A DNA stretch of 47,802 nucleotides. Source: Gammaproteobacteria bacterium. Lineage in GTDB: Bacteria; Pseudomonadota; Gammaproteobacteria; SZUA-152. The DNA lies in NCBI GenBank assembly GCA_011321815.1, contig DROS01000097.1, positions 1 through 47,802 on the forward strand. The letters are read 5' to 3'. The translations under genes and the position numbers were made by a program. Numbering within the stretch: the stretch's first letter is position 1; each line of letters opens with the position of its first letter. Positions 32,392-41,856 of this stretch are shown in pieces. The notes below the pieces were generated by a model that was given only the letters and a program-made list of their open reading frames with translations, ran no database searches and was not told the origin of the DNA.

Positions 32392-35300
32392 CTATTGAGT
32401 CGCTTCTCCAAAATAAATATCATCAATGTAAATCGTGCCTGACATCTTCTCCCACTCAAAGACAAACTGAAGCGTTGCAAGGTGCGTAAGATCTACGCCG
32501 TATTTTGCATACGCTTTCAGAGGAATGGTGATGTTGCTCCAATCTTGCGTTACTTCACCGTACTTCTCGATATCGACAAGCCAGCGGAAGTTTCCATCGC
32601 TCAAATAGATGTTGGGCTTTTCTCCACCTTCCGCGCCTTTGATGCGGAAGGAGAGCGAATCACATGCTATGCAATTGATGCCTTTGAGGTCCATGGACCA
32701 CCCGGAAAAATTCAATCCCTGGCCGTAGTTAAACGTTTTTCCGATACTGCCGCCATAAGAAATGCCGTAAATCCGGTTTGGCGATGAGGTGGTGTAGACT
32801 CCACTGGCTGCCGCCGCGCCATATGCATAGACGCCATGTTTGCCACCAATAACGTTAACCCCATTGATTGTTTCAAAATCCTGCACCATAAAATCACTTA
32901 ATTCCTTATGCAATTTGATATTGTCGACAAACAGGGTTTCTTGGGCATTTGTTCTTTGGTTAAAAGCAAAAACAAGGGCGTCGATTGATCTCCAATCCAG
33001 CCCATCTGCAAAAGCAAACAGGGGGATAGTGACCTCAGTCCATTGTGTGGGAAGGTCGCCCTGTTGCATGAACTGCTCAACATTTATTTTACTCTCCTTA
33101 CCTCTGCGATCCCTGATACCAAGTACCAGCTTCTGATTTTCACCACCTGCTTTAATCATAAAAGAGAGTGATTGAAACTCCCGCAGATCCAGGCGTGGAA
33201 GATGACTGATGTACCCAGCAAACCCGTTGTTTTCTGAAATGCCATATTCAAGTGCAAGAACAGACCCCTTCTCTAAAGATTCGCGGGCAGAGAAGCCAGC
33301 TTCAATTGCCCCCCACTTACCGTCGGTGAAAACGGTCGTTTTACCCCCGAGTTCATTGACTGGTTTCTTGTCATCAAAATCATCCACCAAAATGGTAGGC
33401 TGTTTAAATCCAGGCGGCATGGCCAGATCCTGGCCGATGGTGAAGTTGTCAACGTAGTAGGTTGCTCCGGCACGGTTGCTACCAAACTGGAGTTTCATAT
33501 AACCCGGCACATCCCAGTCAGCAAAGATGATCTCTTCCACCTGAGCGTTTCCGGTTTTGGTGCGCAACATATCGTAGAGGTTGAAACGCGCGGTGTGCCA
33601 ATGATCGTCAGCGATGATGCCTTCGATATCACCGATGTGGGCAATATTGACTCGCATATCCTTGAGCACCTTGGCATCGTCAGTAAAACCGACCTCATAC
33701 CAACGACCTGCGACCTTTACTAACAGGTTAGTTTTGACATCGTTGGAAATACGATAGTCGAACTGGATCAGCGGATACTCTCTGGCGTCAAAGGGCGTGG
33801 TAACGGCATTGACAGCAAAGTTGCCGCCGAGATTAGTGTTGGTAATGCGCAAGGCCTGACTTCCATCGACAGTGGCCTGGTTATCCAGGGCGACTTCTGC
33901 CCCGACATCACCATCCCGGTTCGACCATTGGCCCATATCCTGCTCGAAGTTATTACTCAGCAGATAGTGGCCTCTGGTTGTGGATGCACTCACTTGCTGC
34001 GTACCACCCTCTGTGCGCTGTTCTGCTTCCATGATAGAACCCTCTTCGGGCAAGTGGCTTGTCATCACCGCATAATAGGCATGGAGGGTGGTTAACTCGG
34101 TGTAAATAGATTGATTTTCAGCTGAACGGGTAGAAGGGAGGTATTCCCAATGGCTGGTTTCAGGATTGTATCCATAGATGCCCAATTGCCCGGATTGACC
34201 TTTGTTTCCAGCATCTTGATTGTACTCAATACTGAGGCGAACCTGCTTGGTGAAGCGTTCCCCCGGTTCCCTGACTTGGTAGATAGCGCTGGCAAGTTTG
34301 CGGCCCGCCAGTTCAGCTTCAGGCACCGATTTCGTTGACTGAATCGAAACGAGCCGGAAGGAATCTCTGATTGCCTGTTCTGGAACTGTAAGCAGCGCCT
34401 TACCATCACCGCTCTTGACGACACCACCCCAAGCGTTGGGGATAACATTGGCGACATTCACGGTCACGCGGTCTTCGACAGTGTTGCCATCCTCTCCTTC
34501 CACTACCAGACGAATGGTGTAAGTACCCTTTAGATTAGTCGGATGATCGGCTGGATGGGAGGGGAGATAAATGTAGTTTTTCAGGCCGGTATCCCAGGTA
34601 GCCAGGTTGCCATAGATAGTGGTGTCTAATGAGTCATCCATATCTTTAGCTGTGACCGCTTCTGTTTGTGGTTTGTCTGAGGTTGCCAGAGTACTCCATT
34701 CAGTTGGGTTTTCGCCTGCTCCAAATTCAACGCGGTACTGTTTGAAGTTTTTGCCATGTGCAAGACCAAAAATGGGGACATTCCCACGCACCATCGCTTG
34801 AGGATATGGAACTTCTATTGTTGCTATTAACCCTTTTGCTGATAGAGAAGGCTTTTTAATCAAACCTGCAACTATTTCTCCACTCTTGGCACTGTTTGTG
34901 GTGCGTTGGATAAATGTTGGGTCAGGTGCGCAGGTATTAGTGGCACTACAATTTGGAGGTTCTGTACATTGCGGGTTGGTACTGCATGTACATAGTTCAG
35001 GGTTTGCTGTGCAGCTCGGATTTGTTGGATCTTGAGGGTCTGGATCCCACGGATCAGGTATACCATCATCATCATCATCGTCAGTTCGGTCGTCAGATTT
35101 ACCATCTTTGTCTGTGTCACCGCCGTCACCAGGGCTTCTTTCTTTTTGAGAGCTAAGCATCTGCTCAGTGCTTTCAAGCAGTTCAGCTGCACATCCAATA
35201 GGACTCCCGCATGTGACGGCTTTAGCAACATTAAGTATATCTAACGATGTTTGGTCAATTTTTGGCATAGTTTCTTCGGGAATTATTGATGTTACAACTT

Positions 35301-38300
35301 TAAAAATTCCAACTTGAAAACCAACTGATCCCATTAGAACGGCTGCAACTGTTGCTCCAGGTGCCAGCATAGTCGCAGCTCCTAGCCCTATACCAACAAC
35401 ACCCCACCCAAACCTTTTCCATCTAAACGTAAGTGGACTTTTCTGAAATCCAAAGGGGTCGATCCCATTAATAGGGTTATTTATGACATAGGCATATAAA
35501 TTTATACCACCCAAGAAGCCAATTGGATCAAAATTTAAAAACCTACCAATTACTGGGTCGTAGTATCGTGCTCTGTAATAATACAACCCAATTTCAGGCT
35601 CATATTCTCTTCCTGTATAGAGATATGGGCTTCCAATACTGCTTATATTATTTGGTTGGCCATAAGCATCATAAGAATAGGTTTCGGCCACACTTTCTGA
35701 GTTATCAGTTAAATCAACAACACTCCCCAACCCATCCTGACTATAAAAATACTCACTACCTCCACGCGCCATCACCAACACTTCATCAATACCAATGCCG
35801 TAGGTATAAACAGCCTGTACCGTATCTGCTTCATCCTTTTCCATAATCACTTGAAAACCATCGTGAATAAAGAGGATTGTTCCTGAGCTGGTTGTTTTTG
35901 ATGTTCGGCGTCCCATAGAATCATAGGCATAACTCACCGTTTCAGATGGGGTGGTCACTTCAACAAGCCGATTCTCAAAATCATAGCTATAAGTAGTAGT
36001 ACCAGCTGATGTGGTCTTACTGGTCATGTTGCCATTGGCATCGTAGACATAGGTATCACCACCCACCTCGGTGTACTGATTAAGATCGTTAGTGGTGTAG
36101 CCAGTGGTACCGCTCGTATCTGTCACCGAGGTGCGATTACCTGCCGCATCCAGGCCATAGCTGGTTGCAGAGCTATTAGGCAGGGTTACTCCAATCAATT
36201 GACTGATGGCATCATAGGTATATTGCGTGGTGCCTTGCGGGGTGGTCATGGTGACCCGGTTGCCTCTATTGTCATAGGTATAGGCAAAACTGGAGATCAC
36301 TTCGGCAGTGGATTTGCTGTTGATCAGTTCCAACAGTTGGCTGGCGCTGTCATAGCTATAGGTGCTGTAGGTGCCGTTTTTGAGATTGCGGCGGGTGACT
36401 CTGCTTAATGCGTCGTAGGTATAGCTGGCAACCATCTGGCCCGATTCACTGATCTGTGTCAGACGGTTGAGGGCATCATAGCTGTAATCCAATGTCTTGC
36501 CGTTGGGGTAGACCAACTGGGTTCGATTATTGGCGGCATCATAAGCGTAGGAGACAATCTCACCTCCTGGGTAGGTGATCTGCGTCAGTCGATCCAGATT
36601 GTCGTATACGAATTGAATTTTCCCGTTTTCATCTACGGCTGTTACAAGGTTGCCAGCCGAGTCATAGGTAAAGGTGTCTGATGAGCTATCGGGAAAGGTT
36701 TTTTGTGTCAATCTACCTACAGCGTCGTAGGCAAATGTAATGGTCTGGTTTTTACGGTCTGTTTTGCTGACGAGATTACCAGCACTGTCGTAACCAAATG
36801 TTTCGCTGGCATTATTTGGGTAGGTCGTGGCTGTCAGGTTGCCATTGGCATCATAGCTGAATGTGGTGGCCTGGCCTCTGGCATCGGTGAGGCTGGTGAC
36901 TTGGTTAAAATTGGCATCGTAGGTGAGGGTCGTGCTGTTACCTTGTGGGTCTGTCGTGGTTAGCACATTGCCCGCAGCATCATAGGCGAATGTGGTTGTG
37001 CCGCCATTGGGGTCGGTGAGGCTGGTCAGGTTGAGATTGGCATCGTAGATCATCTGGGTGACGTTGCCGGCCGGGTCGACGCTTTGAGTGACCAGGGCAT
37101 TATTATCGTAGGTCAATACCGTTTGATTACCTAAAGTATCTGTTACGGTCATTTGATTTGTGCTTGGTACGCCATACTGGAAACTAATGCTATTGACTCC
37201 GCTTTCACCGGATACAGAGGCCAGGCGGTCGTCTGTATCGGTGGTAAAAAAGGTGCGCTTGCCCGCTGGATCGGTGATGGTGGTCAGGTTGTGATTGTTA
37301 TCGTAAGCGTAGGATGTGGTCAGTCCGCCATTGTTGGTTACGGTAATCAGATTGCCTGTGGTGTCGTAACCATAAGTGACTGTTTTTCCCAACGGGCTGG
37401 TAATTGTGCTGATGCGATTATTGGTGTCGTAGGTAAACGTTGTGGTTTGTCCGGCAGGGTCGGTAACCGTCAGCAGGCGCCCGATTGTATCGTATGTCAA
37501 TGTTTGGGTGTTGCCGTTTCGGTCGGTGAGTGAGATAAGTTCGCCTGCGGGGTTGAAGATAAAGCTGTTGCCGGATTTTCCCCGCAGCACGTAACTGCCG
37601 TCATTTTCTTTTGTCAGTGTTCGGTAATCTCCCAGAGGGGGTTGATATGTGCCATCGCCATTGGGAGTGAAATTTGAACCAGTACCATCGGCATTGAAAA
37701 TTTGGACAGTTCCGTCTGTTGGAATTAATTGAAGGTTGGCAATCAGGTTGGTAGGTGTTTCTACTGCACGCATTCTGTAAGAGTGTGTCCAGCCATAGCC
37801 GATAGGGCCATCAAATGTAGAGTCCAGCAGGTACGATCTAACGATGTTGACAGGGAATCCCTGGGCGGCTGAGCTGATATCAATTGTGCTGACCAGTTTG
37901 TTGATGGCCGGTGGGTTTGGAACAAGTGTAATAACCTGGGAGCTGTTCGTTGCGGTTTGACCTGCATTGTCAGTCAGTGTCACCTCAATCCGGTAGTCCG
38001 ATGCTGGGCTCAGCCCGGTGGTGTTCCACTCGTAAAAAATTGAACCAAATTTCAGGGGTTGAATGCCTGAATCATAATTTTGTGAAATGGAGGTGATACG
38101 GATCGTTCCACTGACGATATCGGATTCGCCTGACGTTTCTTCGATATCTATGCGAACCTGTCTGCCGGTAGGATAAACGGCATCTGAGTCAGCGATAACA
38201 CTGGAGCTGACGTCAGTGATTTCCGGCGGATTATTGGTGGCTGTAACTGGCGTGGAATCATTCTTGTTTTTTCCACATCCCCAAAGTAATAAAACCACAA

Positions 38301-38346
38301 GGCTTGTTACCGTCCACCATAGGTGGGTTTTGTTATTTTTCCTCAT
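32392..38346 (-). CDS. RHS/YD-repeat lipoprotein with glycan-binding-like C-terminal domains
   Basis: This is a 1984-residue lipoprotein (LLLWGC, Cys24). A short beta-domain comes first (about 40-145). From about 280 to 890 it is a long run of YD repeats (YDxxGN(L/R) themes), ended by an RHS core with GREYEPEIGLYYYRARYYDP and FLNFDPIGFLGG (about 905-945). A hydrophobic Gly-rich stretch follows (about 980-1015), then an Asp-rich spacer (about 1080-1105) and a Cys-rich piece with eight Cys. Beta-rich domains follow. The last 520 residues are three related units, each ending in a Y/F-(V/I)D-(N/D)-(F/I) strand, like CBM11/CIA30-type domains. RHS cages usually close with a toxin tip; here about 1000 residues follow the core and no toxin motif is seen. 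Confidence 0.85.
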   Translation of the reverse strand: MRKNNKTHLWWTVTSLVVLLLWGCGKNKNDSTPVTATNNPPEITDVSSSVIADSDAVYPTGRQVRIDIEETSGESDIVSGTIRITSISQNYDSGIQPLKFGSIFYEWNTTGLSPASDYRIEVTLTDNAGQTATNSSQVITLVPNPPAINKLVSTIDISSAAQGFPVNIVRSYLLDSTFDGPIGYGWTHSYRMRAVETPTNLIANLQLIPTDGTVQIFNADGTGSNFTPNGDGTYQPPLGDYRTLTKENDGSYVLRGKSGNSFIFNPAGELISLTDRNGNTQTLTYDTIGRLLTVTDPAGQTTTFTYDTNNRISTITSPLGKTVTYGYDTTGNLITVTNNGGLTTSYAYDNNHNLTTITDPAGKRTFFTTDTDDRLASVSGESGVNSISFQYGVPSTNQMTVTDTLGNQTVLTYDNNALVTQSVDPAGNVTQMIYDANLNLTSLTDPNGGTTTFAYDAAGNVLTTTDPQGNSTTLTYDANFNQVTSLTDARGQATTFSYDANGNLTATTYPNNASETFGYDSAGNLVSKTDRKNQTITFAYDAVGRLTQKTFPDSSSDTFTYDSAGNLVTAVDENGKIQFVYDNLDRLTQITYPGGEIVSYAYDAANNRTQLVYPNGKTLDYSYDALNRLTQISESGQMVASYTYDALSRVTRRNLKNGTYSTYSYDSASQLLELINSKSTAEVISSFAYTYDNRGNRVTMTTPQGTTQYTYDAISQLIGVTLPNSSATSYGLDAAGNRTSVTDTSGTTGYTTNDLNQYTEVGGDTYVYDANGNMTSKTTSAGTTTYSYDFENRLVEVTTPSETVSYAYDSMGRRTSKTTSSGTILFIHDGFQVIMEKDEADTVQAVYTYGIGIDEVLVMARGGSEYFYSQDGLGSVVDLTDNSESVAETYSYDAYGQPNNISSIGSPYLYTGREYEPEIGLYYYRARYYDPVIGRFLNFDPIGFLGGINLYAYVINNPINGIDPFGFQKSPLTFRWKRFGWGVVGIGLGAATMLAPGATVAAVLMGSVGFQVGIFKVVTSIIPEETMPKIDQTSLDILNVAKAVTCGSPIGCAAELLESTEQMLSSQKERSPGDGGDTDKDGKSDDRTDDDDDDGIPDPWDPDPQDPTNPSCTANPELCTCSTNPQCTEPPNCSATNTCAPDPTFIQRTTNSAKSGEIVAGLIKKPSLSAKGLIATIEVPYPQAMVRGNVPIFGLAHGKNFKQYRVEFGAGENPTEWSTLATSDKPQTEAVTAKDMDDSLDTTIYGNLATWDTGLKNYIYLPSHPADHPTNLKGTYTIRLVVEGEDGNTVEDRVTVNVANVIPNAWGGVVKSGDGKALLTVPEQAIRDSFRLVSIQSTKSVPEAELAGRKLASAIYQVREPGERFTKQVRLSIEYNQDAGNKGQSGQLGIYGYNPETSHWEYLPSTRSAENQSIYTELTTLHAYYAVMTSHLPEEGSIMEAEQRTEGGTQQVSASTTRGHYLLSNNFEQDMGQWSNRDGDVGAEVALDNQATVDGSQALRITNTNLGGNFAVNAVTTPFDAREYPLIQFDYRISNDVKTNLLVKVAGRWYEVGFTDDAKVLKDMRVNIAHIGDIEGIIADDHWHTARFNLYDMLRTKTGNAQVEEIIFADWDVPGYMKLQFGSNRAGATYYVDNFTIGQDLAMPPGFKQPTILVDDFDDKKPVNELGGKTTVFTDGKWGAIEAGFSARESLEKGSVLALEYGISENNGFAGYISHLPRLDLREFQSLSFMIKAGGENQKLVLGIRDRRGKESKINVEQFMQQGDLPTQWTEVTIPLFAFADGLDWRSIDALVFAFNQRTNAQETLFVDNIKLHKELSDFMVQDFETINGVNVIGGKHGVYAYGAAAASGVYTTSSPNRIYGISYGGSIGKTFNYGQGLNFSGWSMDLKGINCIACDSLSFRIKGAEGGEKPNIYLSDGNFRWLVDIEKYGEVTQDWSNITIPLKAYAKYGVDLTHLATLQFVFEWEKMSGTIYIDDIYFGEATQ

Positions 38347-38619
38347 GAGGCAGCTCCCTTGTCAGTCAGCGTATTGCCCACAGTGAAAAATGCCTGGAGG
38401 CTGTTTATTATTGAATTTATGAAAATACGCCCTTTGCTTACTACCAAAGAAACCAGGGGATTGCAACATATTGGTTTTTGGTTTTGTGCGAATGTTTGGT
38501 TTGCAGTAATGGGCGGGTAAAATACCCTGGAATCTTGTCAGGTATCGTTACGGCAAGGATGGCCGTGTGAACGGTTTCGATTTTCTTTGAGTCTTTTTCT
38601 TATGAGCTTCCAGAATGAT

Positions 38620-38689
38620 GTATAATGCCTTGCTCAGCGGCAGTTTAAAGTGACGCTTTAAACTGCCGCTGGAGCTAATTGTTAGAAGC
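38620..38689 (-). other. attC site of an integron cassette
   Basis: Read on the minus strand, the site begins GCTTCTAAC (R'', fits RYYYAAC). It continues AATTAGCTC, then a perfect 16-bp arm CAGCGGCAGTTTAAAG, a 5-base loop CGTCA and the matching arm, and ends with AGCAAGGCATTATAC. The stem extends through GCTC/GAGC with one bulged base, like the extrahelical bases that set attC strand choice. The far R' site reads ATTATAC, with A where the conserved G of GTTRRRY should be. Confidence 0.78.
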
Positions 38690-39065
38690 ATTTTATTTTC
38701 CGGCCTCACCGCCAAAAAATGACTCCATTTCTGTGATTAATTTTTCTTGATATTGCCTTAGCCAATAGTCCAGATGAAACCTATATTGTTTATCGAACAT
38801 AAGCATATTGGTATATTCCTTAACTAGCTCGCGCCTGGCTTTTTTAATTTCATCTGGTTTTTTGTTAAATATTTCTTCATACCAGCCTGAAATAAATTCA
38901 TCATTGAATTGATACTGACTCCGAATGGTTTTAGTTAAGAAATACGCGCACATCTGTTCTTCAGTGAATCGTTTTCTTAATTCCTTTTCAATTGCCTCTT
39001 CTTTTTCTGTAAGTTTATCAACCATTCGTGGCATTGTTACATTCCGACTTTTATATTGCTTCTAA
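38626..39065 (-). mobile_element. Single integron gene cassette (440 bp)
   Basis: On the minus strand the unit starts at TTAGAAGC, preceded by G (39066-39058), runs through one short gene and ends in an attC site. The first bases are the reverse complement of the attC 5' end (GCTTCTAAC at 38689-38681), exactly as expected if the unit was once a closed circle recombined at G/TT. Only one attC is present and no integron integrase gene is in the window. So this is a lone attC cassette, placed by off-site integration or left over from a lost array. Confidence 0.75.
38693..39034 (-). CDS. Cassette-borne hypothetical protein
   Basis: The 113-residue product is highly charged and predicted mostly helical (KLTEKEEAIEKELRKRF near the start, then FLTKTIRSQYQ and SGWYEEIFNKK). 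It has no signal peptide and no membrane segment. I recognise no family. The gene fills the cassette: its start is 24 bases from the cassette edge and its stop overlaps the spacer just before attC. GGA lies seven bases before the ATG. A second in-frame ATG is three codons in. Integron cassette genes are often unnamed; no toxin, antitoxin or resistance motif is visible. Confidence 0.7.
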   Translation of the reverse strand: MPRMVDKLTEKEEAIEKELRKRFTEEQMCAYFLTKTIRSQYQFNDEFISGWYEEIFNKKPDEIKKARRELVKEYTNMLMFDKQYRFHLDYWLRQYQEKLITEMESFFGGEAGK

Positions 39066-39234
39066 CAATATCTGTGTAATTCCCGTCAGAAACAAGAATT
39101 GATAATGCTGGAGTGTTTAATGTCCTGTTTGTCTGCCACCCCATTTCTTTGTTTTATCACCATTCTCGTTTGCTTTTCCGCTTTAAGTTAATAACTATCT
39201 TTCATTCATCAGTTTATTGGGCGTTTCATCGAAG

Positions 39235-41856
39235 TTATTTGTTGTTCAGCTCACGAAGGCGATAAAGTGTTTCCAGTGCTTTACGTGGTGTCAGTTCATC
39301 AGGGTCAATGTGCTTTAATGCATCCAATGCCGGGTGGTTTTCCACCGGAGTATCGAACAGCGAAAATTGTTCGACGGCTTCCCCACTGGGCGCATTGGCG
39401 TTTTGGTTTTCCAGTTGCAGCAGGCGTTGTCGTGCACGTTTGATCACGGTTTTGGGTACACCTGCCAGTGCGGCCACTTGCAGCCCATAACTTTGATTGG
39501 CCGGCCCTTCTTTTACTGCATGCATAAACACGATGCCATCGCCGTGTTCCACGGCGTCGAGGTGTACGTTGGCCACTTGCGACAGGGTTTCCGGCAGGGT
39601 GGTGAGTTCAAAATAGTGCGTGGCAAACAGGGTAAAGGCCTGCACGGTAGTGGCCAGTTCTTCGGCGCAGGCCCAGGCCAGTGACAGGCCGTCGAAGGTG
39701 GAGGTGCCGCGACCCACTTCGTCCATTAATACCAGACTGCGATCCGTGGCATTGTGCAGGATGTTGGCGGTTTCAGTCATTTCCACCATGAAGGTGGAGC
39801 GGCCCCCGGCGAGATCATCAGAAGCACCGATGCGGGTAAATATGCGATCAAACGGACCGATGACTGCGCGACGGGCAGGCACAAAGCTGCCGACGTGGGC
39901 GAGCAGGGTGATTAACGCGGTCTGGCGCATGTAGGTGGATTTACCGCCCATGTTGGGGCCGGTAATCACCAGCATGCGGCGTTGTTCGTCGAAGCGCACA
40001 TCGTTGGGAATGAAGGGGTCTTCCAGTACCTGTTCCACCACCGGGTGGCGGCCGCCTTCGATTAACAGGCCGGGCTTGTCCACTAATTCCGGTTGACACA
40101 GATCGAGGGTGTCGGCGCGTTCGGCGAGGTTGCTCAGTGCATCCAGTTCCGCCAGTGCCGTGGCGCTGTCCTGCATCGCAGGCAGTACGTCGGCCAGCTG
40201 GTCAAAGAGTTTTTCGTAGAGTATTTTCTCCCGCGTCAGCGCACGCTCTTTAGAGGACAGCGCCTTGTCTTCAAAGGATTTTAATTCGGGAGTGATGTAA
40301 CGCTCGGCACCTTTCAAGGTTTGGCGACGGATGTAATTATCCGGGGCATTGGCGGATTGCGCCTTGCTGATTTCGATGTAATAACCATGCACGCGGTTAT
40401 AGGCAACTTTCAGTGTGGCGATACCGGTGCGTTCACGTTCGCGGGTTTCGAGGTCTAACAGGAACTGTCCGGCGTTGTCTTTGATGGCGCGCAGCTCATC
40501 CAGCTCGGCGTCGAAGCCAGGAGCAATCACACCACCGTCGCGGATCAGCATGGGCGGCACGTCAATGATAGCGGCGCTGAGCAGGGCATGTTGCTCGGGG
40601 TATTCGCCGATGCGGGCGTCGAGGGCTTCCAGCAAGGCGCAGTCCTGTCCGGCAAAGATGCCGGTTAATGTGCTGCGCAGTTCCGGCAGACGTTCCAGCG
40701 TATCGCGCAGCTGAGAAAAATCCCGTGGCCGGGCGTTGCGAATGGCAATACGCGCGAGAATACGCTCCACATCGCCAATGGCGCGCAGGATGCTTTGCAG
40801 TTCTTCGTAGCGGTGGCCATCCAGCAACACGGCAATGGCCTGATGACGTTGGCGCAAAGCAGTGTGATTGGCCAATGGACGATTGATCCAGCGCCGCAGC
40901 AGACGACTGCCCATGGGCGTCGCGGTACGATCCATTACCCAGGCCAGAGTGTGCTCACGACCACCACCGAGATTGGTTTCCAGCTCCAGATTGCGACGGC
41001 TGGCGGCGTCCAGCACGATGCTGTCTTCGCGGCGTTCCACTTGCAGGCCACGCAAATGCGGCAGGGCGGTGCGCTGGGTGTCTTTGACATATTGCAACAG
41101 GCAACCGGCGGCACTCACGGCGAGGTGGAGCTGTTCACAACCAAAACCCGCGAGATCATGGGTGCCGAATTGTTGAGTGAGCAGACGGGTGGCGGTGTCC
41201 TGCTCAAAATACCACGGTGGCTGGCGGCGCAGGCCGGGGCGCGCGGTATCAATGCCCACAGGCATGGCTTCTTCATTGAGTAGCAGTTCCGAAGGATTCA
41301 GTCGTTCCAGTTCGCCGCTCAGTGCTTCTTCACCCTCTACTTCCAGTACGCTGAAACGACCGCTGGTGACATCCAGTGCGGCAATACCAAAAAAATTGCC
41401 TGATGTCTGTACGGCCACCACCAGATTGTCACGGCGCTCTTCCAGCAGGGCTTCATCGGTAACCGTGCCGGGGGTGACGATGCGGACTACCTTGCGTTCC
41501 ACCGGCCCTTTGGACGCGGCTGGATCGCCCACCTGCTCGCAAATGGCGACGGACTCCCCCTTGCGCACCAGTTTGGCAAGATAACCATCGGCCGAGTGAT
41601 AGGGAATGCCACACATGGGAATGGGATCACCACCGGACTTGCCGCGAGCGGTGAGGGTGATATCCAGCAGTTTCGCGGCCTTGCGGGCATCCTCGAAAAA
41701 CAGCTCGTAAAAGTCGCCCATGCGGTAAAACAGCAGAGTATCCGGGAATTCTGCCTTGATGCGCAGAAACTGGGTGATCATCGGCGTGTGCTGGCCGGTG
41801 GTTTTTGGGCTTTTTGACGAGCCTGTTTTCGGGATTTGGGGGGCAGTAGCAGACAT
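39235..41856 (-). CDS. mutS: MutS DNA mismatch recognition protein
   Basis: MutS finds mismatches and recruits MutL. The 873-residue protein is complete. The N-terminal mismatch domain carries the Phe-x-Glu motif in [12 protein letters not shown]. Connector, lever and clamp domains follow, then the ATPase with Walker A ([13 protein letters not shown]), Walker B ([16 protein letters not shown]), the His switch (FATHYFELT) and a C-terminal helix-turn-helix and tetramer-type tail. About 25 Ser/Thr/Pro/Lys-rich residues precede the usual HTPM start of the family. A decayed copy of exactly this 5' end lies at 42379-42458. There is no strong ribosome site, so the start is less sure. fdxA, its usual neighbour, is 10.5 kb further on. 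Confidence 0.97.

Follow-up and report, generated by a model that had tools for sequence, protein, structure and literature searches.

A lone integron gene cassette with a decayed attC site beside mutS in an uncultured gammaproteobacterium

The closest described counterparts of the locus reported here are single attC sites and cassettes that lie outside arrays. The term SALIN denotes a single attC lacking an integron integrase, as used with IntegronFinder at a calin-threshold of 1 (PMC12690207). IntegronFinder 2 omits single sites by default, some of them being false, and notes that they can be real (PMC9024848). In addition, insertion at nonclassical attG sites has been published by Loot et al. 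2024, as cited in passages of PMC12901181 and PMC12444791. Within the attC site, extrahelical bases contact the integrase, and cleavage falls in the 5'-AAC-3' of the R box (PMC11641012).

Our analysis identifies a cassette beside mutS as a real, decayed case of the already known SALIN kind. The window that we analyzed is 47,802 nucleotides long and makes up an entire contig (C97) of a 3.58-Mb, 109-contig draft genome that is 99% complete. It holds one attC site in 47.8 kb, and there is no IntI on the contig. Like a SALIN, the locus combines one attC and one cassette with no nearby integrase, in a chromosome that has integrons elsewhere; unlike a typical one, its attC lacks the R' G, one extrahelical base, and the inner hairpin, and a generic model scores it weakly. 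As with attG insertions, a single cassette lies outside arrays, and rejoining its flanks gives a G/TT core, GTTATAC. It differs from them in being natural, old, and decayed, with no empty target seen. The features of the locus are as follows.

32392 to 38346, minus strand: RHS/YD-repeat-type ORF of 1984 aa, on the other side of the cassette from mutS.
38620 to 38687, minus strand: attC site of 68 nt, 54.3 bits in a covariance model from relatives (R2), 12.5 bits in a generic one (R1), single-stranded DNA fold z of -7.5.
38620 to 38626, minus strand: R' side, ATTATAC by sequence, with A for the conserved G; array kin have GTT.
38632 to 38675, minus strand: 19-bp stem with one bulged C and a 5-nt loop (38651-38655), from the fold and the alignment to kin, whose second extrahelical base and inner hairpin are missing here.
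38681 to 38689, minus strand: R'' side, GCTTCTAAC, from the sequence aligned to kin.
38626 to 39065, minus strand: whole cassette of 440 bp, beginning with TTAGAAGC and ending at the base that precedes TTATAC, placed by its junctions and by comparison with a second lone cassette (L064).
38693 to 39034, minus strand: unnamed 113-aa ORF with six predicted helices, under strong purifying selection among eight copies.
39058 to 39066, minus strand: left junction G/TTAGAAGC, a simple core site with its flanking G at 39066, exact complement of R''.
39235 to 41856, minus strand: mutS, 169 bp from the cassette start and in the same orientation, identified by its translation and by orthologues of 94-95% identity beside the same genes in relatives.

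An earlier note, made from the DNA letters alone, had described a 440-bp gene cassette at 38626-39065, and it proved exact in its coordinates and in its placement of the ORF, the hairpin, and both junctions. Reading along the minus strand gives, in order, ...ACAGATATT, G/TTAGAAGC, a short leader, the ATG (39034), the stop codon (38693), and then the attC, which after the stop reads ATGCTTCTAACAATTAGCTC C AGCGGCAGTTTAAAG CGTCA CTTTAAACTGCCGCT GAGC AAGGC A/TTATAC. The two junctions were read directly. The first base of the cassette is the minus-strand T of G/TTAGAAGC at 39065, which makes 39066/39065 a core of the G/TTRRRY type, as had been proposed, and the same TTAGAAGC also opens L064; the final base is the A of ATTATAC at 38626. 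The ORF is followed closely by the attC, with R'' beginning at 38689. The proposed complementarity between the first bases of the cassette and the 5' end of the attC extends over 9 nt: GTTAGAAGC has just two occurrences in the window, against 0.18 expected, one marking the cassette start (39066-39058, minus strand) and the other lying, as its complement, at R'' (38681-38689, plus strand). Local similarity to L064 spans gene and attC and stops at 38617, nine bases beyond the cassette end. We relied on local alignment for this boundary check, since free gaps raise the background of a global alignment and make it uninformative. These observations support the claim of an integron cassette with its attC, alone at its locus.

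The attC site was evaluated with a descriptor and with two covariance models, both built without the window site. The descriptor combined R'', stem, and R' and permitted any first base in R'; it found a single site in the 47.8 kb, with an arm score of 18, and 60 first-order Markov simulations never exceeded 12.5. R1 is a generic model of 22 attC sites, 12 from class 1 plasmid arrays and 10 from environmental loci, none of them of the window subtype. It ranks the window site best in 4 kb at 12.5 bits, but with an E value of 0.15, and such a low score is explained by damage to the site. R2 rests on five attC sites found in relatives, all with the same L-box sequence as the window. It matches strongly, at 54.3 bits, with an E value of 1.9e-13 genome-wide, the top match in the genome. 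The covariance check suggested in the earlier note thus came out in favor of an attC, strongly with one model and weakly with the other. Because similarity to the window guided the initial choice of these five seeds, R2 alone is no proof that the subtype is an attC; on their own, however, the seeds reach 22-34 bits in R1 and carry GTT at R', and several of them lie within arrays. The hairpin folds at -21.7 kcal/mol, compared with a mean of -6.6 for shuffled sequences (z = -7.5), and the site pairs a YYYAAC-type R'' (TTCTAAC) with a foldable L''-L' stem. The earlier note had given this hairpin a bulged base and a 5-base loop, both of which we recovered, and a 16-bp stem, which is an equivalent register of the inner part of what we fold as 19 bp.

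An ordinary gene followed by a hairpin, whether a terminator or a REP-like repeat, could account for the weak R1 score and for the fact that the gene is also found outside cassettes, in a spacer flanked by a nitrate-transporter-like MFS gene and a phosphatase-kinase gene in two genomes of the genus (G011 and G004). We consider this reading highly improbable. It is at odds with the 54 bits in R2, with the complementarity of the cassette start and R'', with the joint occurrence of the same start, gene, and attC at the unrelated locus L064, and with the simulations, 0 of 60 of which reach the score of the site; moreover, a terminator scan listed no site at the hairpin. An Rfam scan at gathering thresholds returned a tRNA only.

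Comparison with kin reveals three kinds of damage, one noted before and two further. First, R' reads ATTATAC rather than the GTTRRRY with its conserved G, ATT standing for GTT, as the earlier note had observed. Second, where an attC typically carries two to three extrahelical bases, the bulged C is kept, but the A found in all kin, the bulge in GCGGACAG, is absent (GCGGCAG). Third, the inner hairpin is gone, the pattern expected from a deletion between the two copies of CACTTT that bound it in kin. The central spacer (AAT.. / AAGGC) is retained. All three changes should lower or abolish recombination, and judging from its sequence we file the site as a decayed attC rather than a functional one.

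The 113-aa protein is encoded at nine loci among the genome contigs that we searched. The closest parallel is L064, from the metagenome-assembled genome (MAG) of another gammaproteobacterium (ES_M_Gamma_082), at a locus unrelated to that of the window. This second lone cassette starts with TTAGAAGC and carries the gene at 82% identity; its attC, which belongs to the window subtype and scores 67.7 bits in R2, has CTTAGGC at R', likewise without the G. Its neighbors are presumably a thiamine-diphosphate decarboxylase gene and an alcohol dehydrogenase gene, as read by eye. No empty site was found for L064, where the search covered one genome of its genus and the other matches belonged to an unrelated dispersed repeat. 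That repeat (L064:5514-5682), up to ~170 bp long, lies upstream of the lone cassette and has more than 10 other matches in the same genome. In a Thiotrichales MAG (L069), the gene belongs to a real array that contains several attC sites. The attC of this copy differs in subtype, yet the junction from the stop codon to TTCTAAC is common to the window, L064, and L069. Five other copies (L034, L035, L065, L067, and L070) have no clear cassette.

The copies in the MFS/kinase spacer look accessory too. Across the family (L060:5700-5900; L135, L136, L139, L142, L146, and L151), this spacer ranges from 126 to 1269 nt, with the gene present in two genomes, and it seems to be a spot where small genes come and go. 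Capture from the corresponding nitrate-assimilation-like cluster of the host was considered and rejected, as the host spacer is 126 nt long and without the gene, in a spacer of variable length.

The closest attC kin of the window site are found in other genomes and not in the host. As a separate observation, two attC-like sites of the window subtype (L041:7520-7607 and L042:7380-7430) are each preceded by CATGCCCATRCTGGGCGTACACAA, as if another element had inserted into R''. The CALINs and chromosomal arrays of the genus (L033, L036, L037, L039, and L111-L116) share the attC build and a common subtype with the window; they differ from it in having two or more attC sites and GTT at R' wherever it was read. 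Among 26 readable model matches, R' was GTT at 11 of 11 sites with a neighboring attC and at 9 of 15 singles. By our own arithmetic, the probability that all six exceptions fall among singles by chance is ~0.02. Confinement of GTT loss to singles is only suggestive, given that some singles may be false matches. The lineage of the window cassette could also be read as one that leaves arrays and becomes locked in chromosomes through loss of the attC crossover G, with attC damage reflecting selected domestication rather than neutral decay. We think this quite unlikely. If true, the domestication of a useful gene would have run in parallel in the window (ATT) and in L064 (CTT).

The earlier note had stated that there is no integrase and only one attC. 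This stands for the window and its contig but fails for the genome, which contains two IntI genes and has attC sites on a further seven contigs. Both integrase genes exceed the 265-bit cutoff of the IntI family: one on C16 (G000:C16; L031:17366-18259) scores 425 bits, with its N terminus cut by the contig end, and the other on C23 (G000:C23; L032:715-1701) scores 472 bits, with one in-frame TAG. A match to the IntI model at 2-499 of the window is a XerD, judged by its sequence and neighbors. Arrays of attC sites, counted by model search only, lie on C2 and near the ends of C90, C95, and C42, with further sites on C107 and C44 and a single site on C105. Since many of these sites lie at the ends of contigs, their actual number is probably larger. 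The C105 site (L117:2218-2270; G000:C105:20717-20769) is attC-like, with 23.5 bits in R1 and an intact GTTATGC; no ORF of at least 60 aa was found before it. An endogenous donor and integrase are thus at hand in the host genome, which makes insertion by the host's own IntI plausible.

We consider it probable that the cassette is an ordinary SALIN, which IntI placed at a secondary site of the attG type and which has since been immobilized. A cassette circle would have been excised from one of the host's own arrays or taken in from elsewhere, and an integron integrase would have recombined it, via the folded bottom strand of its attC, with a secondary site in the intergenic DNA downstream of mutS. 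The attC would then have decayed through the change of the R' G to A, the loss of the A extrahelical base, and the deletion of the terminal hairpin between CACTTT repeats, after which excision is expected to be inefficient or lost and the gene fixed. The gene is retained by selection and, sharing the orientation of mutS, could be read from upstream transcription. When the flanks are joined (...CAGATATTG|TTATACATC), they give a near-core GTTATAC; in the fuller reading (...ATTACACAGATATTG|TTATACATCATTC), this fits 6 of the 7 positions of the core GTTRRRY. Among the points against this reading, the right junction is expected to carry the G of the cassette on its cassette side but has an A there, so a later change must be assumed, and the generic attC model alone would not call the site (E value of 0.15 in 4 kb).

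Alternatively, the cassette could be the last piece of a lost integron array or CALIN beside mutS, from which the other cassettes and any platform were deleted. The host does have several arrays and clusters without a nearby integrase, and the attC has decayed as it would in an old remnant. Yet no attC, attI, or IntI is left on either side, the core site at the left junction G/TTAGAAGC stands bare, lacking an L-box partner upstream of it, and exact loss of all but one cassette takes more steps. Past the cassette start, a filters-off model search turned up no further attC, and the window does not contain the attI leader of the genus; for these reasons we favor secondary-site insertion over an array remnant, which we hold to be unlikely but credible.

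The locus itself varies among relatives. The RHS gene and the cassette together form 6.87 kb between a 507-aa gene and mutS. This block is missing in G002 (MutS 94.5% identical), where 160 bp separate mutS from the gene that precedes the RHS gene here, and other genes adjoin mutS in G009 and G006. The earlier note had named as a contrary outcome that gene and hairpin would always be present here in relatives; they are not, given these three genomes and the occurrence of the cassette elsewhere in L064 and L069. No empty site was found among 57 relatives, none of which matched the immediate intergenic flanks of the cassette. The insertion itself is therefore not seen, and the whole 6.87-kb block may have entered together. 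An entry of this kind, with a cassette already single in the donor, would agree with G002, which lacks both RHS gene and cassette, and with flanks not found in the relatives. No element ends were identified around the block, in a search not aimed at them, and the other genes held there by G009 and G006 may instead mark a general hot spot. We give this route little credence and retain insertion of the cassette at a secondary site as the probable origin.

A different observation concerns the integrons of the genus. Its complete integrons contain a stretch of ~430 bp that begins at attI and stops shortly before intI; a LexA-box-like CTGT-N8-CAG lies close to where the stretch ends. At least eight copies of this stretch are not followed by IntI:

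L084:2384-2821 (G009:C21:142413-142850), copy without IntI.
G009:C57:81331-81761, copy without IntI.
G009:C40:51265-51705, copy without IntI.
G009:C51:9084-9518, copy without IntI.
G003:C87:47577-48010, copy without IntI.
G007:C74:349-792, copy without IntI.
G006:C28:6661-7080, copy without IntI.
G006:C91:21-381, copy without IntI.

They end within a few bases of one point, past the LexA-like box and ~20 bases before the intI start, and their flanks are unrelated; three of them (C21, C57, and C40 of G009) have attC sites on the attI side. From its sequence, this looks like a dispersed integrase-less integron platform, for which a literature search found no publication. It may be of more interest than the cassette.

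The cassette gene was unnamed in the earlier note and stays so after searches of family, structure, and fold. Searches of Pfam, NCBIfam, PHROG, and PADLOC gave no significant family, and no solved structure of any relative was found. An AlphaFold model has six helices (pLDDT 74), and Foldseek returned no match to it better than an E value of 5. Plasmid, viral-contig, and phage searches for the protein yielded nothing. Among its copies, dN is 0.1-0.3 while synonymous sites are saturated between most pairs, which points to an old gene under strong purifying selection. A protein tree did not resolve cassette from non-cassette copies.

Taken together, the locus provides a clear natural example, from an uncultured gammaproteobacterium, of a cassette that has come to reside outside any array. 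Its nearest relatives, both lone and in arrays, are available for comparison, and the steps by which such an attC decays can be read from the locus. That a generic attC model nearly misses an old single site suggests that surveys may undercount them. The cassette also draws attention to an unnamed family of 113-aa proteins that is conserved from gammaproteobacteria to a spirochaete MAG.
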